Part shown: one piece after another, positions 93 to 6,963 of the stretch
Numbering within the stretch: the stretch's first letter is position 1
Layout: every line of letters starts with the position of its first letter
DNA from: Lachnospiraceae bacterium
GTDB lineage: Bacteria; Bacillota; Clostridia; Lachnospirales; Lachnospiraceae
DNA: 64,000 nucleotides
NCBI GenBank assembly: GCA_024690825.1
Contig: JAILOK010000129.1
Span: forward strand, 62,001 to 126,000
Direction of reading: 5' to 3'
Translations under genes and position numbers: made by a program
The notes under the pieces: model-generated
The model's input: the letters and a program-made list of their open reading frames with translations, nothing else
What the model was told of the DNA's origin: nothing
Databases searched by the model: none

Positions 93-3000
93 ATGGAGAA
101 ATATATCGAAAACCTTATCAGAGGTCATTTTGAATATGAGACGGAAAAGATAACGGTATCGACAAGAAAAATTGAGGCTGATGTCACTCCTTTACAGGAT
201 AAGGACGGAAGCTTCGTCATCAGCTGCAGGGACAATAAAAAAATAAAACTTTCCGTCATGACTTCGGATCCGCGCATAAGGGTCTCGGTCGAAGAGTATG
301 AAGGCTCTCTTGATGAGGGCCTTGAAGTGATGTACAGTGTTTCGACAAAAGGCCTTGACAGCGGATTTGTGTTCAAGGGCGACATTTACATTATATCCGA
401 TGCGGGAGAAGCCCAGATAAGCGTTGTCATAGAGGTTGTAAGAAAGCATATCGAGTCTTCGGCAGGTCCGATAAAAAATCTGTTTCATTTTACAAATCTG
501 GCCCGTTCTGATTTTGATGAGGCTGTGCGGGTCTTTTATACAAAAGAATTCAGGGATATCTTTAAGAATGCGGAAAAGGCACACATGTTAAAATACCGGG
601 CCTTTTCAGCCAGGGAGATGTCCTATGAAAATGTCGAGGAATTTCTGATATGCGTAAACAAGAAGACTCCGGTTGTTTACAGCTTTGACCGTGAGAATAT
701 CACGGTTCTGGACCTGGACAATGAAGGAGAGGGGAGTTTTACCATCAGGAAGTCCGGCTGGGGTTATACGCGTCTTAAACTTGAATCGGATTCGGATATA
801 TTGTCGCTTTCAAAAGATGAGATCAATTCTTATGACTTCATAGGAAATTCCATAGATATACATTATACCGTAAGAACGGAAAAGCTTCACAGGGGCATTA
901 ATTACGCGTCAGTGAGGCTGCGTTCGTCACATACGGATATCACGCTTCCGGTCTTTATCAGATACAGGACTGCGGATAAGGCCGAACTTGATGCCGATTA
1001 CAGGCAGAAAAAACTGAGAAGTGAGCTTACGGAATGCTATGTGCGTTTCAGGATAAAGGATATTACCGCAAACGCCTGGATAAATGAATCAAAAGAGCTT
1101 ATAGACAGGATGCTTTATATAAATATGGAGGATCCTCTGACAAGGCTTTATCAGGCTCACAGCCTTATCGTATCAAAAAGAGACAGAGAAGCTTCAATAC
1201 TTCTGGAAAAGATAGGATCGGAATTTGATACATCAAAGTTTGCGCCGGATCTTAAAGGCTATCTCATATACCTGAAGGCGATGAACGCAAAAGACGATGC
1301 GGATATCGAGGATGCCGTCAAATCGGTATGGGCCCTGTATGAGGGCCACAGAGACAAGGATTTTCTCCTATGGATACTGATCTATCTTGATGAGACGGTA
1401 AAGCGGTCGCCGGAGAGAGAAAAGGAACTGCTCATCAGACAGTTTGAAAGAAATTCATCAAGTCCGCTTCTTCTGATAGAGGCTTATGTGATGTTTTCAA
1501 AGGAACCCTCACTTCTGACGAAACTCGAGAACATAGAAGTGCGTATCCTTTATTATGCAATAAAGAAAGGGCTTTTCAACAAATCCCTCGAAGAAAGAGT
1601 GATAACCCTGGTATCACGGTGCAGAAATTTCAATTCGCTGCTTTTCAAGGTCCTTTCCGAATATTTCAGGGAATTTGATGATGATGACATTCTTACGGCG
1701 CTCTGTTCATATCTCATAAGGAACGAAAAGACAGATAAGGAGTATGGCGAATATTTCAGGGAGGCGGTCGAAAGAGAACTGCGGATCACCAATCTGTATG
1801 AGTATTATCTCTATACGCTTCCGGAAAATCATACAGCCCTGTTACCGAGACATGTACTCCTTTATTTCGGGCTGCAGAACAATCTTCCTCCGATACTGAC
1901 TGAATATGTTTTTGCAAACATGATAGTACATGAATCGGAAGTGCCCGACCTCCTGGAAGAATGCAGGATGAGGCTTTCGGATTTTGCCGTCAAGGAAATA
2001 TATGACGGACATATAGATGAGAATCTGGCTGTTATTTATGATTATCTTGACTACTTTAAAGGAAGTGAATTCGGCCAGATGAAGCAGCGTTTTGCGGTAG
2101 ACAACGCTCTTGCAGATGTAGCCTTTATCAGGCTCATCAGATGCAGGGACAGAAGGATGAGTTCCGTTGTCGTAATAGAGAGACAGCTTGCCGAAGAAAA
2201 GGTATATACATTAAAAAACGGGCAGGCTTATGTCAAGATATGCGGGAATGATTATGAGATCTTTTTTGAGGATGCATACGGCAACAGGATGCTTCGGATT
2301 GAAAACGGCTATGAGGAAATACCGCTTCTTCACACCGCAACCGCAGTCAGACAGATCGATTCTCTTTCGCAGGATGATACATCCCTCAATGTGTATCTGT
2401 CGCTTCGCGGACGAAACGCGTTTGCGGTAGACAGCTTCAATGTGGTTTTTGTAAGACGCTGTCTTGAGTCCGGGGAGATCGATGATGAATTTAAGGATGA
2501 GATACGCATGGAGCTTTTCAGATATTATTTTGATGAGGACATGCTCCGTGAACTTGACAGTCTCATCGATATTACCGATATAAGCGCCCTTGACATGGAG
2601 GACCGCAGCCAGATAGTAAGATATATGGTTATAAGAGACATGACACAGAGGGCCTGTCAGGTAATAAGTGACTACGGAATCTCCGGAACCGACGCCAAGA
2701 CCATGGTAAGGCTGCTGTCGCTGTTTCTTTCACAGAACGGTGCTTCAGGTCCCAAAGACCTGATATATATGGCATATTATGTTTTTAATGAGGGAAAGTA
2801 TAATGAACAGATACTGTCATATCTGATCGATTTCTTTGACGGTACGACAAGAAACTTAAGAAGGATATGGAAGGCCGGTGAGGATTTTGAACTTGATGTC
2901 AGGAATATCGAGGAAAAGATCATTCTGCAGATGCTCAAGACGGGAAGCTTTATCGGGGAAAAGGATGATATATTCTTTGATTATGTGAAACGCGGCGCCT

Positions 3001-3665
3001 CGGGTCCGATAGTTTCGGCATACCTTTCCTACAATGCCTATGACTATTTTGTCAGGGAGCGTATACCGGACAAAAGGATATTCCCCGAGCTTCTGAGGCT
3101 GTATGAGGATGATGAGATAAATGATGTATGTCTCCTTGCGCTTATCAGATACTACAGGGAGAGGGAGAAGGATGAGAAAACTCTTTCGATACTTTGTGAA
3201 TGTATCAGAAAGATGCTTGAAAAGAATATCATTTTTGATTTCTTTTCCGCGTATTCACAGTATGTTGAGGAATTAAAGCTTTACGGCGACCTTTCCTTTG
3301 TCGAATACAGATCAAATCCCAAAAACAGGGTAGTGCTGCATTATCTTTTAAATGACGGAAATGACGACCGCATGAGCTATTCCAAAGAGGAGATGACAAA
3401 TATCTACGGCGGAATCTTCTCAAAGAGATTTGTGATGTTTCGAGGGGAAAGACTGCAGTATTATATCACGGAGGAGTCGGGCGGAAGCGAGAATCTGACG
3501 CAGAGCGGGGTTATCGAGATAGAACCTGACGAAAGCGCGGACAATACTTTAAGGTACTGTCTTTTAAATGAAGTCATACTGTGCAATATACTGGAAGATT
3601 ATGAAAGCATGGAAGGGGCGCTTAAGGATTATCTGAAGAAGCGCGCCCTGTTGAAGGATCTTTGA
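93..3665 (+). CDS. Giant DUF5717-type protein: N-terminal beta domains plus long helical-repeat region
   Basis: This 1190-residue protein has no catalytic motif that I recognise. Residues 1-115 and about 195-300 read as two beta-rich Ig/ASH-like domains. The second has the pattern of a 'DLDNEGEGSFTIRKSG' strand pair followed by 'RGINYASVRLRSSHTDITLPV'. From about residue 305 to the end the sequence is almost wholly helical and acidic, with TPR/HEAT-like helix pairs such as 'DPLTRLYQAHSLIVSKRDREASILLEKI'. No signal peptide or membrane segment is visible, so it is probably cytoplasmic. From memory it matches the Lachnospiraceae family DUF5717, which sits beside DUF5716 as it does here. The start ATG follows TTGGAG and lies three bases after the upstream stop. 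Function unknown; a scaffold or client-binding partner for the Hsp70-like protein encoded next is an inference. Confidence 0.85.
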   Translation: MEKYIENLIRGHFEYETEKITVSTRKIEADVTPLQDKDGSFVISCRDNKKIKLSVMTSDPRIRVSVEEYEGSLDEGLEVMYSVSTKGLDSGFVFKGDIYIISDAGEAQISVVIEVVRKHIESSAGPIKNLFHFTNLARSDFDEAVRVFYTKEFRDIFKNAEKAHMLKYRAFSAREMSYENVEEFLICVNKKTPVVYSFDRENITVLDLDNEGEGSFTIRKSGWGYTRLKLESDSDILSLSKDEINSYDFIGNSIDIHYTVRTEKLHRGINYASVRLRSSHTDITLPVFIRYRTADKAELDADYRQKKLRSELTECYVRFRIKDITANAWINESKELIDRMLYINMEDPLTRLYQAHSLIVSKRDREASILLEKIGSEFDTSKFAPDLKGYLIYLKAMNAKDDADIEDAVKSVWALYEGHRDKDFLLWILIYLDETVKRSPEREKELLIRQFERNSSSPLLLIEAYVMFSKEPSLLTKLENIEVRILYYAIKKGLFNKSLEERVITLVSRCRNFNSLLFKVLSEYFREFDDDDILTALCSYLIRNEKTDKEYGEYFREAVERELRITNLYEYYLYTLPENHTALLPRHVLLYFGLQNNLPPILTEYVFANMIVHESEVPDLLEECRMRLSDFAVKEIYDGHIDENLAVIYDYLDYFKGSEFGQMKQRFAVDNALADVAFIRLIRCRDRRMSSVVVIERQLAEEKVYTLKNGQAYVKICGNDYEIFFEDAYGNRMLRIENGYEEIPLLHTATAVRQIDSLSQDDTSLNVYLSLRGRNAFAVDSFNVVFVRRCLESGEIDDEFKDEIRMELFRYYFDEDMLRELDSLIDITDISALDMEDRSQIVRYMVIRDMTQRACQVISDYGISGTDAKTMVRLLSLFLSQNGASGPKDLIYMAYYVFNEGKYNEQILSYLIDFFDGTTRNLRRIWKAGEDFELDVRNIEEKIILQMLKTGSFIGEKDDIFFDYVKRGASGPIVSAYLSYNAYDYFVRERIPDKRIFPELLRLYEDDEINDVCLLALIRYYREREKDEKTLSILCECIRKMLEKNIIFDFFSAYSQYVEELKLYGDLSFVEYRSNPKNRVVLHYLLNDGNDDRMSYSKEEMTNIYGGIFSKRFVMFRGERLQYYITEESGGSENLTQSGVIEIEPDESADNTLRYCLLNEVILCNILEDYESMEGALKDYLKKRALLKDL

Positions 3666-3680
3666 TAGGAAAGAGGATAA

Positions 3681-4910
3681 ATGAGAACTGTTGCGGGATT
3701 GGATCTTTGTGATGATGTGACGCAGATAAGTCTGCTTACATCGGGGGAAACCGGGAAAATGGAGGTCGTGACAAGGCCTGTTCTTATGGGAACTGAAAAA
3801 TACTGCATTCCCACTAAAGCCATGAAGATCAATGATAAGGAAGAATGGATATTCGGACAGGAAGCGGACAGGGCCCCGGAAGGGTTCGGCACGATGTACC
3901 GGGATCTGATAGAACTGGCCTCGGATGATGAATCAAAAATACCGGTCCTTTCCGGTTTTATCAGGCATGCTCTTAAAGGGGTGACTTTTAAGAGCGAGTG
4001 GCCGGCAAAGCCGATGCTTTTTATTACATTAAGACAGTTGGATTCAAAATCCTTAAGGACCGTAAAAAGAGCGGTGGAGCTGCTGGAATTAAATGATGTG
4101 GATATCAGGTTTTTAAGCCATGCCGAGAGTTATTTTTATTATTCAGCAAGCCAGTCCGAAGAATTAAAGATCAACAAGGTATGTCTGGTCGATTATGACG
4201 GAAAGACCGTAAGGACAGGGATGCTGTCCACCAACCGCAATATGAAGCCCAATGTCACATTTATCGATGAGAGGCAGTTTGAACTTGCGGAAAAAAGTGA
4301 TATCGGAATGCTTAATATATGCCGTCAGGTCATGGACAGCGAGATAATTTCAAGCGTGTATCTTGCCGGTACCGGGTTTGAGGGTGACTGGGCCAAAGAG
4401 ACCGTAAAATATCTTTGCGATGACGGACGCAGGGTGTTTCAGGGCATGAACCTGTATACAAAGGGTGCCTGCTATGCGGCAATGGATGTATCGGGAATAA
4501 AAAAGCTTGAGACGGGCGAGATCTTTTTGGACAGAGACAAACTGAAAGTAAATATAGGAATGGATCTTTGCATTGAGGGACAGATAAAATACAGATCCCT
4601 GATAGATGCAGGGATCAACTGGTTTGAAGCATCAAATGAGATAGAGGTAATGCTGGGAAAGGAAAGAGAGATAAGGATAACCTTAACTCCCATAAGCGGA
4701 GACGGCGACAGGATAGTCGTGATAAGGACAAACGGCATACCCGAAAGGCCGGAAAGAGCTTCGAGGGTAAGGCTGAGATTTGAGATGATCTCCGTATCGG
4801 AACTGAAGGTGACGGTTACCGATATGGGATTCGGAGAGATCTTTCCTGCTTCCGGAAATGAGATCACGCAGATCGTGGGTATCGAGGATGTGAAGGGAGA
4901 GGCTTCATGA
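3681..4910 (+). CDS. DUF5716-type Hsp70/actin-fold protein with degenerate nucleotide site
   Basis: A 409-residue protein that I read as an Hsp70-like fold. The phosphate-1 region is GLDLCDD (residues 6-12), where Hsp70 has DLGTT. The phosphate-2 region is LVDYDGKT (D171), where Hsp70 has DLGGGT. The adenosine region is LAGTGFEG (229-232) followed by KGACYAA (261-267), close to the GAA segment of Hsp70. Residues about 285-405 resemble an Hsp70 substrate-binding beta domain: 'GIPERPERASRVRLRFEM' then 'ELKVTVTDMGFGEIF' parallels the family's 'aprG.p.I.V.F.iD.nGil.V.a.d..tG'. The helical lid is absent. The conserved glycines of the phosphate loops are partly lost, so ATP hydrolysis is uncertain. 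It starts 15 bases after the giant gene, with GGAAAGAGG as ribosome site, and overlaps the next gene by ATGA. The Hsp70 relationship is my inference from the pattern. Confidence 0.82.
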   Translation: MRTVAGLDLCDDVTQISLLTSGETGKMEVVTRPVLMGTEKYCIPTKAMKINDKEEWIFGQEADRAPEGFGTMYRDLIELASDDESKIPVLSGFIRHALKGVTFKSEWPAKPMLFITLRQLDSKSLRTVKRAVELLELNDVDIRFLSHAESYFYYSASQSEELKINKVCLVDYDGKTVRTGMLSTNRNMKPNVTFIDERQFELAEKSDIGMLNICRQVMDSEIISSVYLAGTGFEGDWAKETVKYLCDDGRRVFQGMNLYTKGACYAAMDVSGIKKLETGEIFLDRDKLKVNIGMDLCIEGQIKYRSLIDAGINWFEASNEIEVMLGKEREIRITLTPISGDGDRIVVIRTNGIPERPERASRVRLRFEMISVSELKVTVTDMGFGEIFPASGNEITQIVGIEDVKGEAS

Positions 4911-5707
4911 CCTATGAATGTATAGGGAAAAAAACGGGCACACCGTTTTATATAGAACAGCTCGGCCTTAATGTTTATTCATTTGAGGAACTGCTGTATT
5001 TTCTTAAGGGGAATGCATATATCCTTGACGATTCGGTCATAAACGAAGTCCTGTTTGATTTTATCGGAAAGGAACTGGAACTTCCGGATCTGCATGCCCA
5101 GCTTAAGGAACTGTACAGAAAAAACAAGGGACTTTCTGATTATGTATGTACGATCCTTGCGTACGGACACTATGTCAATGAAGAGGAACTTGAGAATATA
5201 CGCCGTATAATCGAAGGAAATACGGATGTAAAACCCTTCATCAGAAGGAAGGCCAGAGGTGATTTCTTTTTTCAGAACAAAAACCATGTTGCGGCTGCCG
5301 AAGAATACAGGGCCGCGATCAGTGAATGCGACGGCAGTGACAGGAGACTTATATCCGTATATCACAATCTGGGCATGATATATGCAGGTTCATATCTGTT
5401 CAGGGAAAGCTCTGCTTATTTCAGAAAGGAATGGGAACTGTCCGAAGACAGGGATGCTCTGAAAAGATATCTGAAGGTTCTGAAGATCGGTGTATCAAAA
5501 TCCGAGTTTGAAGAAGAAGTGCTGAAAACCGATCCTGATCCGGAAGTTTTTGAAATGGCAAAGGAAGAGATTGAAAAGGCGGAAACGGAAGCCGGAAATG
5601 AGGTTTCCGCGCTGATGGATCTGCAGTATCAGGACAGGGTGGGCTTTATCAGAAAGGCGGAAGAAATGATACTGGAACTGAAGAACGAATACAGGGTTAC
5701 GGTTTAA
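4907..5707 (+). CDS. TPR-like repeat protein
   Basis: A 266-residue soluble protein overlapping the Hsp70-like gene by four bases (ATGA), so translation is probably coupled. Residues about 112-195 contain tetratricopeptide-like helix pairs: 'RRKARGDFFFQNKNHVAAAEEYRAA', then 'YHNLGMIYAGSYLFRESSAYFRKEW', have the spacing of small and large residues expected of TPRs. The C-terminal 60 residues are a charged helix. There are no catalytic motifs, signal peptide or membrane segments. TPR proteins often serve as adaptors, including for Hsp70 systems, and position in this operon suggests such a role here, but that is inference. Its stop codon lies inside a long dyad (5696-5741). Confidence 0.82.
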   Translation: MTYECIGKKTGTPFYIEQLGLNVYSFEELLYFLKGNAYILDDSVINEVLFDFIGKELELPDLHAQLKELYRKNKGLSDYVCTILAYGHYVNEEELENIRRIIEGNTDVKPFIRRKARGDFFFQNKNHVAAAEEYRAAISECDGSDRRLISVYHNLGMIYAGSYLFRESSAYFRKEWELSEDRDALKRYLKVLKIGVSKSEFEEEVLKTDPDPEVFEMAKEEIEKAETEAGNEVSALMDLQYQDRVGFIRKAEEMILELKNEYRVTV

Positions 5708-5741
5708 GATCCTGAAAGGATTAAGCATTTTAAACCGTAAC
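5696..5741 (+). repeat. Nested inverted repeat spanning a stop codon
   Basis: A perfect 12-base inverted repeat, GTTACGGTTTAA (5696-5707) and TTAAACCGTAAC (5730-5741), encloses a second small hairpin, ATCCT-GAA-AGGAT (5709-5721). The left arm contains the last codons and stop of the TPR gene. No T-run follows, so it is not a typical terminator. It could be an RNA processing or stability element that sets different expression for the downstream membrane gene, or a protein-binding dyad. Confidence 0.75.
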
Positions 5742-5757
5742 GATACAGGATAGAAAA

Positions 5758-6963
5758 ATGGGCATATTCAAAAAAATAGGCGATTTTTTTGCTAAATACA
5801 GTATAGAGGCCGGGTTTGAAGAGGAAGATCTGTTTGACGGTGAAGATATTGCGAAGATAGAAACACCCGACAGAAATGAGATAGATATTTCAAACCCCAT
5901 GATGCGTGAAAGATATGTCAGAAACTGCTGCGACCAGATGCTCGAATCCACGCGTGAAATAGATGAGGCAACGAGGGAATACAGGCTGGTAACGGATTAT
6001 TTAAACGATATGGAAACGATAGACAAGCTTCCACCGGAAAGATACGGTCCGTTAAAGCATGCCGCCGAAGAAGTGATGAGACTTGAAACCAAGAGCCGGC
6101 TGCATTCCGAAAAGATAGGCAGGATAAGCAATGACAGATATGAAGATATGGAAGCCATTGCCTCCGACATGCCCGGTGCCCTTGAAGAAATGAAAAAAAA
6201 CGAGGATTATAAATTTCTTGTCCGGGGAGATCTGCAGAAGCTTGAGGGCGAAAAAGGAGCGTACGCTTTCCAGAAGAAAGAGATGTCGGTAAAGCAGGTA
6301 AGCTGCAGGAATTTTGTGATGATCACAATATGCTCGTTAAGCTTTATCATTCTGATGCTTCTGGTCCTCAAATACATGTATCAGATGGATGTTATCTTGG
6401 GCTGCGTGATAGCCTCCTTTGCCGCTGCTGTTGCCATGACTCTGATATTCGTGGAATATATAGGCGCGGGATCGGAGATGAGAAAGGCGTCGAACTTCTT
6501 AAACCAGGTGATAGCAAAACAGAATACGGTAAAAATAAGATATGTGAATGTCGAAAATCTTCTCCAGTATCAGTACAGGAAGTATCATGTGAATTCTTCA
6601 GACGAACTTGAGTATTTCTGGGATATGTATCTGGAGGAAAAAAACGAAAGACAACTGCTTGATGAAGCGGGAGGCGATCTTAAACACGCCATGGATACCT
6701 TCATGAGCCTGCTTAAATCCATCAGATTAAAATATCCTACAATATGGTCCCGTCAGGCTTATGCTGTCGTTGACAGAAGAGAGATGGTTGAGCTGCGTCA
6801 CGATCTGGTTGAAAGAAGACAGTCGCTTCGAAAAAGAATCGAATATAATAACGAGAACAGAAACATGGCAAAGGATGAGGTGAATGAACTGGTGAAGAAA
6901 TATCCGAACTATGCTTCCCAGATCATAGCTATCGTCTCGGCCTATGAAAAAGATGAAAAATAA
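5758..6963 (+). CDS. Membrane protein with two adjacent helices between coiled-coil domains
   Basis: A 401-residue protein not assigned to a named family. Residues 1-45 are acidic, 50-180 are predicted coiled coil (rich in E, K, R), and two hydrophobic helices follow at about 186-206 ('FVMITICSLSFIILMLLVL') and 211-233 ('VILGCVIASFAAAVAMTLIFV'). Residues 240-401 are again charged helix. A helical hairpin anchor with both long arms in the cytoplasm is the simplest topology. It is the fourth gene in the operon with the giant protein, the Hsp70-like protein and the TPR protein, so it may tether that assembly to the membrane (inference). The gene starts 50 bases after the TPR gene, downstream of the nested dyad. 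No terminator is evident after it. Confidence 0.8.
   Translation: MGIFKKIGDFFAKYSIEAGFEEEDLFDGEDIAKIETPDRNEIDISNPMMRERYVRNCCDQMLESTREIDEATREYRLVTDYLNDMETIDKLPPERYGPLKHAAEEVMRLETKSRLHSEKIGRISNDRYEDMEAIASDMPGALEEMKKNEDYKFLVRGDLQKLEGEKGAYAFQKKEMSVKQVSCRNFVMITICSLSFIILMLLVLKYMYQMDVILGCVIASFAAAVAMTLIFVEYIGAGSEMRKASNFLNQVIAKQNTVKIRYVNVENLLQYQYRKYHVNSSDELEYFWDMYLEEKNERQLLDEAGGDLKHAMDTFMSLLKSIRLKYPTIWSRQAYAVVDRREMVELRHDLVERRQSLRKRIEYNNENRNMAKDEVNELVKKYPNYASQIIAIVSAYEKDEK

Follow-up and report, generated by a model that had tools for sequence, protein, structure and literature searches.

What part might an Hsp70 play in a cell if it no longer uses ATP? The question is raised by four genes, P1 to P4, that lie in tight order near the start of a 64,000-nucleotide stretch of DNA from a Lachnospiraceae bacterium (the window; assembly GCA_024690825.1, contig JAILOK010000129.1, positions 62,001 to 126,000 of the forward strand). 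A preliminary description had proposed that they form an Hsp70-like chaperone or scaffold system, possibly one membrane-linked assembly. Using a combination of profile searches, structure models, residue alignments and comparison with related operons, our analysis identifies P2 as an Hsp70-like protein whose modelled fold spans both functional domains, whose catalytic residues are lost in nearly all the sequences aligned, and whose closest relatives lie in operons with several intact Hsp70s and a GrpE-domain protein.

Fold and nucleotide site of P2

P2 belongs to the Pfam family DUF5716_C (PF18980; E 2.6e-86, 289.7 bits against a gathering score of 34.7) and P1 to DUF5717 (PF18984, PF18983; DUF5717_N at E 6.5e-236 and 785.7 bits, DUF5717 at E 2.2e-90 and 303.4 bits, gathering score 25). 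Both assignments, which the preliminary description had already made, are far above cut-off, and the Pfam descriptions name no function. Against the HSP70 profile PF00012 the window P2 gives no hit at E up to 1, and NCBIfam gives no match above cut-off for any of the four proteins. The best structural matches of the P2 model are Hsp70s, covering the nucleotide-binding domain (NBD) and the beta part of the substrate-binding domain (SBD-beta) together, with model residues 2–409 aligning with DnaK 2–510. The model and its matches to the DnaK NBD contain the actin-fold domain with the exception of subdomain IIB; SBD-beta is found in the model alignment and in a weak profile match to DnaK 400–461; and the protein ends after SBD-beta, so that the SBD-alpha lid is missing. 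In a sequence search of the PDB, a diverse P2 alignment (A1) also found DnaK, at E 0.007–0.027. The actin/Hsp70 similarity on which the earlier claim depended is thus borne out, and we take P2 to be, on its modelled structure, an Hsp70-like core of NBD and SBD-beta with altered nucleotide loops.

For the nucleotide site, 123 P2 rows, representing 119 distinct sequences, were aligned with DnaK from the window genome and with the Hsp70s of sister-family operons; this alignment, the sequence comparison and the tree described below leave out loci L124, L159, L136 and L160 (the last with a full gene set) and the Hsp70-D of L121, which is split into two open reading frames (ORFs). Compared with DnaK and canonical Hsp70s, P2 lacks not only the lid and subdomain IIB but also any equivalent of Lys70, Glu171 or Asp201 (0/123 each), and Thr199 is matched in just 8 rows; the window P2 has I, H, T and R at the Lys70, Glu171, Thr199 and Asp201 columns. 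The subdomain IIB stretch, with its adenine contacts, has no letters in any of the 123 rows. By comparison, Lys70, Glu171, Asp194, the GGGT loop and Asp201 are all intact in the sister Hsp70-A (9), Hsp70-C (9) and Hsp70-D (8) rows, which also keep the adenine contacts Lys270 and Ser274 throughout, Glu267 being kept only in D. The former phosphate-2 loop of P2 is under little constraint (2.13, where the mean is 2.65), and constraint is highest at residues 246–266, in the linker region and in the SBD-beta strand 304–314. Judged from these residues, P2 itself is unlikely to run through the usual ATP-driven cycle of a chaperone, and of the two functions first offered for the operon, scaffold therefore fits better than chaperone.

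Sister-family operons and the descent of P2

Outside the Lachnospiraceae the same genes have different company. Ten of the 13 sister-family loci examined encode P1 (mostly as two ORFs), Hsp70-A, a GrpE-domain protein, Hsp70-B, Hsp70-C, Hsp70-D and P3, with the GrpE domain above cut-off in eight of nine operon proteins scanned. At L119 the Pfam HSP70 profile matches A at 5.1e-76, C at 7.4e-63, D at 4.5e-96 and B at 1.4e-17, and Hsp70-B matches DUF5716_C as well (1.5e-26). The ATPase residues of A, C and D are intact and those of B degenerate; A, B and C, by the ends of their Pfam matches, stop after SBD-beta. Hsp70-D has a C-terminal VWA domain at the position of the lid in all seven proteins scanned (L119:5495–7573 and L117, L118, L120, L123, L125 and L135).

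The window's P2 is closest to Hsp70-B, which it matches over its whole length at E 4.5e-53, followed by C (7.4e-23) and by A, D and DnaK (5e-6 to 9e-5). In a tree that used 19 of the 123 P2 rows and was read with DnaK as outgroup, all 19 form one clade (100/100) inside the B lineage, joined (100/100) to the Hsp70-B of genome G450; the fine placement is unsure because the branches are long. Descent of P2 from the degenerate Hsp70-B of a multi-Hsp70 and GrpE operon type is thus well supported, and the case for an Hsp70-like P2 with altered nucleotide loops is stronger than had been claimed. Since many sister-family genomes keep intact Hsp70s and GrpE, the Lachnospiraceae cluster looks like a chaperone machine minus its ATP engine. 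The G450 operon itself (L121) is transitional in appearance: its GrpE gene is shortened (279 aa), its Hsp70-B is the nearest to the Lachnospiraceae form, and Hsp70-D and P3 are each split into two ORFs.

Of 131 order genomes from outside the Lachnospiraceae, 60 contain the operon GrpE; it is found in none of the 15 Lachnospiraceae genomes of the same sample, and in none of the 291 genomes of a class sample, 278 of them outside the order. DUF5716_C is found in 71 of the 146 order genomes and in 56 of the 131 outside the Lachnospiraceae, most of which have it at two or more places; 55 of these 131 have both operon GrpE and DUF5716_C, five GrpE only, one DUF5716_C only (G461) and 70 neither. The only DUF5716_C matches in a sample of 299 genomes from the phylum are in four Lachnospiraceae genomes, the window's own included. 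When any GrpE was counted in ten genomes, each of five sister genomes had two and each of five Lachnospiraceae genomes one. A PF00012 search of the window genome gives a single canonical DnaK, encoded on another contig than P1–P4, and two further hits, both partial, in MreB-sized ORFs (336 and 340 aa).

Within the family, P1 is present in 145, P2 in 145 and P3 in 144 of 150 genomes (for P3, one weak match among 145 listed, in G029 at E 3.1e-4, was dropped). P1 and P2 occur together in 144, nearly always as single copies, and all three genes are missing from four genomes (G029, G091, G098 and G128), of which G029, G091 and G098 have a completeness of at least 93%. This distribution bears on a further possibility, that the operon belongs with the conflict or immunity systems centred on GAP1-N2 GTPases. 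The class as described (eLife 2020, PMC7159879) includes actinobacterial and Firmicutes clusters in which HSP70 and GrpE accompany FNIII proteins fused to TPRs or DnaJ, a parts list of Hsp70, GrpE and beta-sandwich/TPR proteins much like the one here. By contrast, we recognised no GTPase or GAP1 beside the operons (a few flanking ORFs, among them the aminotransferase and an RlmL-like gene, were scanned with Pfam and the rest judged by eye from their N-termini), most sister operons examined have four Hsp70-like genes, and near-universal single-copy genes are unlike a patchy defence system. The PADLOC anti-phage models match none of P1–P4; one weak hit, to PDC-M61B at E 4.4e-7, falls inside the Hsp70 part of the sister-family Hsp70-D from L119. 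We regard a conflict system as very improbable.

Partner proteins, gene order and neighbourhood

The layout of the four genes (Table 1) is as first described: P1 and P2 are 15 bases apart, P2 and P3 share an ATGA overlap, and P4 follows after 50 bases.

Table 1. Genes of the P1–P4 operon, with coordinates in the window
Gene	Coordinates	Strand	Product
P1	93–3665	+	1190 aa; DUF5717_N and DUF5717
P2	3681–4910	+	409 aa; DUF5716_C; lidless pseudo-Hsp70 (modelled): NBD without subdomain IIB, plus SBD-beta
P3	4907–5707	+	266 aa; shortened tetratricopeptide repeat (TPR) adaptor (predicted)
P4	5758–6963	+	401 aa; predicted membrane hairpin with long flanking segments

P1, described earlier as a beta-domain and helical-solenoid protein, is modelled (mean pLDDT confidence 85.4, pTM fold score 0.58) as two immunoglobulin-like domains followed by TPR-like alpha-solenoids with small beta domains. 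The fold matches of the immunoglobulin-like domains (residues about 16–291) are PapD/MSP/ASH-like, a common beta-sandwich also found in HYDIN and CEP192, so that the match is one of fold and not of function, and beyond these domains P1 continues as a long solenoid. P3 has sub-threshold Pfam matches to TPRs only. Its sister-family orthologue, at 387 aa, contains several TPRs, and in the Lachnospiraceae a large part of the C-terminal repeats has been lost. Five genomes encode P2 and P3 as a single ORF of 684–723 aa that matches each of the two profiles separately, and these fusions are the strongest computed sign that P2 and P3 may work together.

P4 has no Pfam family above cut-off. Hydropathy places two hydrophobic segments at 186–204 and 212–230, a predicted membrane hairpin in agreement with the two-helix membrane protein first proposed. 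Orthologues occur in four sister operons (L121, L122, L125 and L135) and in 65 of the 150 Lachnospiraceae genomes, a weak match in G013 (E 7.9e-4) having been dropped from the 66 listed. Conservation of gene order among relatives, a check that the preliminary description had suggested, therefore holds for P1–P2–P3 and only in part for P4, and the suggested membrane-linked assembly, for which the P2–P3 fusions are the best hint, would be limited to the genomes that carry P4.

The predicted hairpin, the actin-fold core of P2 and the PapD/ASH-like domains of P1 would all suit another role, in which P2 acts, like FtsA, PilM or MreB, as an adaptor of cytoskeletal or pilus type, serving an envelope structure with P4 as membrane partner and having no chaperone-related function; single-copy near-universality likewise suits a structural housekeeping role. 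The top structural matches of P2 are nevertheless Hsp70s over NBD and SBD-beta jointly, its relatives in the same type of operon are Hsp70s accompanied by GrpE, and P4 is not found in the larger part of the family, all of which makes such an adaptor unlikely.

The one-strand order P1–P2–P3–P4 is retained in 76 of 80 loci, which argues that the arrangement is not due to chance; these are the best 80 of 588 matches from a single search and thus a biased sample. The exceptions are L078 and L112, without a detected P1 (L112 starts at a contig end), and L100 and L108, without P4. Downstream of the four genes lie purB and purA. Upstream, an aminotransferase (PF00155) ends 3 bases before P1, preceded by genes that we take from their sequence to be trkA- and trkH-like. 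The run of genes thus probably starts further upstream than P1 in the window genome, and the cotranscribed unit may be longer than four genes. A class I/II aminotransferase (L002:10992–12089; L151, L153, L154, L155 and L157) adjoins the operon in the window genome and, by eye (with Pfam for L151 only), in several sister genomes, in differing orientation. Relatives of a peptidoglycan-binding-domain protein (PF01471 in L043, L043:2523–3794) lie near the operon on either strand in 54 of the 80 loci. Two sister genomes have an extra protein of 390–440 aa directly before P1 (L152:1328–2650 and L158:1821–2993), with an N-terminal part that is hydrophobic by eye and, in one of the two, a weak TACC coiled-coil match; it could be a further component.

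In 25 of the 80 loci a gene for an HtpG-like (Hsp90) protein precedes P1 on the same strand, at 0.1–5.4 kb (e.g. L088:4206–6254), and the single such gene scanned has an HSP90 Pfam match. A regulatory role might be imagined here, in which P2 resembles Hsp110 or Ssz1 and serves the canonical cytosolic DnaK (or HtpG) as co-chaperone or regulator, working on the clients of DnaK while P1 and P3 provide the adaptors. Hsp110, however, works with ATP bound, whereas P2 lacks subdomain IIB and the catalytic residues; other genes usually stand between HtpG and P1 over the distances given; and DnaK is encoded on a different contig. We consider this role improbable.

Proposed mechanism and points against it

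We hypothesize, at about even confidence, that the operon is left over from an Hsp70 machine dedicated to some task in the order, minus its energy supply, and that P2 is a nucleotide-independent scaffold or holdase. The ancestral operon would have encoded, as many sister-family operons still do, P1, P3 and in some cases P4 together with four lidless Hsp70-like proteins and a GrpE-domain exchange factor to serve them. In the Lachnospiraceae, A, C, D and the operon GrpE are no longer present at the locus, and the degenerate B alone survives, as P2, with subdomain IIB deleted too. P2 would then serve as a non-cycling, Ssz1-like scaffold or holdase on a PapD-like/TPR platform, its actin-fold core docking P3 and P1 and its lidless SBD-beta holding either a segment of a permanent partner or a loosely bound client; in genomes with P4, that protein would link the assembly to the membrane. 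A precedent is Ssz1 of the yeast ribosome-associated complex: this Hsp70 has no lid and hydrolyses no ATP, and its SBD-beta binds a segment of the partner protein Zuo1 (PMC7083937). Ssz1 differs in that it keeps ATP binding and pairs with a J-protein, and by losing subdomain IIB P2 has departed further from canonical Hsp70s than Ssz1 has.

Several observations weigh against this proposal. No J domain was found when the window proteins and a set of sister-operon proteins were scanned with Pfam, a search that did not extend to the remainder of the genome. A closer P2 alignment (A8) found nothing in the PDB sequence search at E up to 1. Within the nucleotide site, 117 of the 123 P2 rows retain an Asp8 equivalent, an acid stands at the Asp194 position in 109, and the former phosphate-1 stretch (residues 5–17) is under above-average constraint (3.18 against the same mean of 2.65), so that the cleft may still bind some ligand or metal; an invariant Glu two residues past the Glu171 column makes a shifted role possible. 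Three of the 13 sister loci are without the full gene set: L124, over the stretch retrieved, has GrpE, B, C and D but lacks A as well as P1 and P3; L159 has no more than GrpE, B and C; and at L136 P1 and Hsp70-B stand alone. P4, finally, is missing or unrecognised in 85 of the 150 Lachnospiraceae genomes. In the genome of L136 (L136:3814–8913, G461, outside the Lachnospiraceae) the operon GrpE was not found genome-wide at E 1e-10, which might reflect a second, independent reduction of the machine.

In a more tentative extension, the Lachnospirales might possess an Hsp70 machine not described before, made up of four lidless Hsp70-like proteins (one of them with VWA), a GrpE reserved for it, a membrane hairpin and a PapD-like/TPR scaffold, and in the Lachnospiraceae this would have been turned into a permanent ATP-free structural assembly in which the pseudo-Hsp70 cleft and SBD-beta are re-used for partner binding. 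We found no functional work on this operon in the open-licence literature searched, which leaves DUF5717 unmentioned and names DUF5716 in a single paper, unrelated to judge by its title and abstract; what is new here, in that it was not found described in the same literature, is the Hsp70 derivation with its unusual deletion and the ancestral gene set.

Lachnospiraceae are among the commonest gut bacteria, and P1 and P2 are kept together by nearly all the sampled genomes of the family, yet they have been without a functional literature that we could find. An Hsp70 lineage without ATPase residues, fixed as a family trait, is unusual, and the sister operons provide a comparison set with the ATP engine still in place. 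Two families of the DUF kind thereby become a testable question, namely what role an Hsp70 has without ATP.
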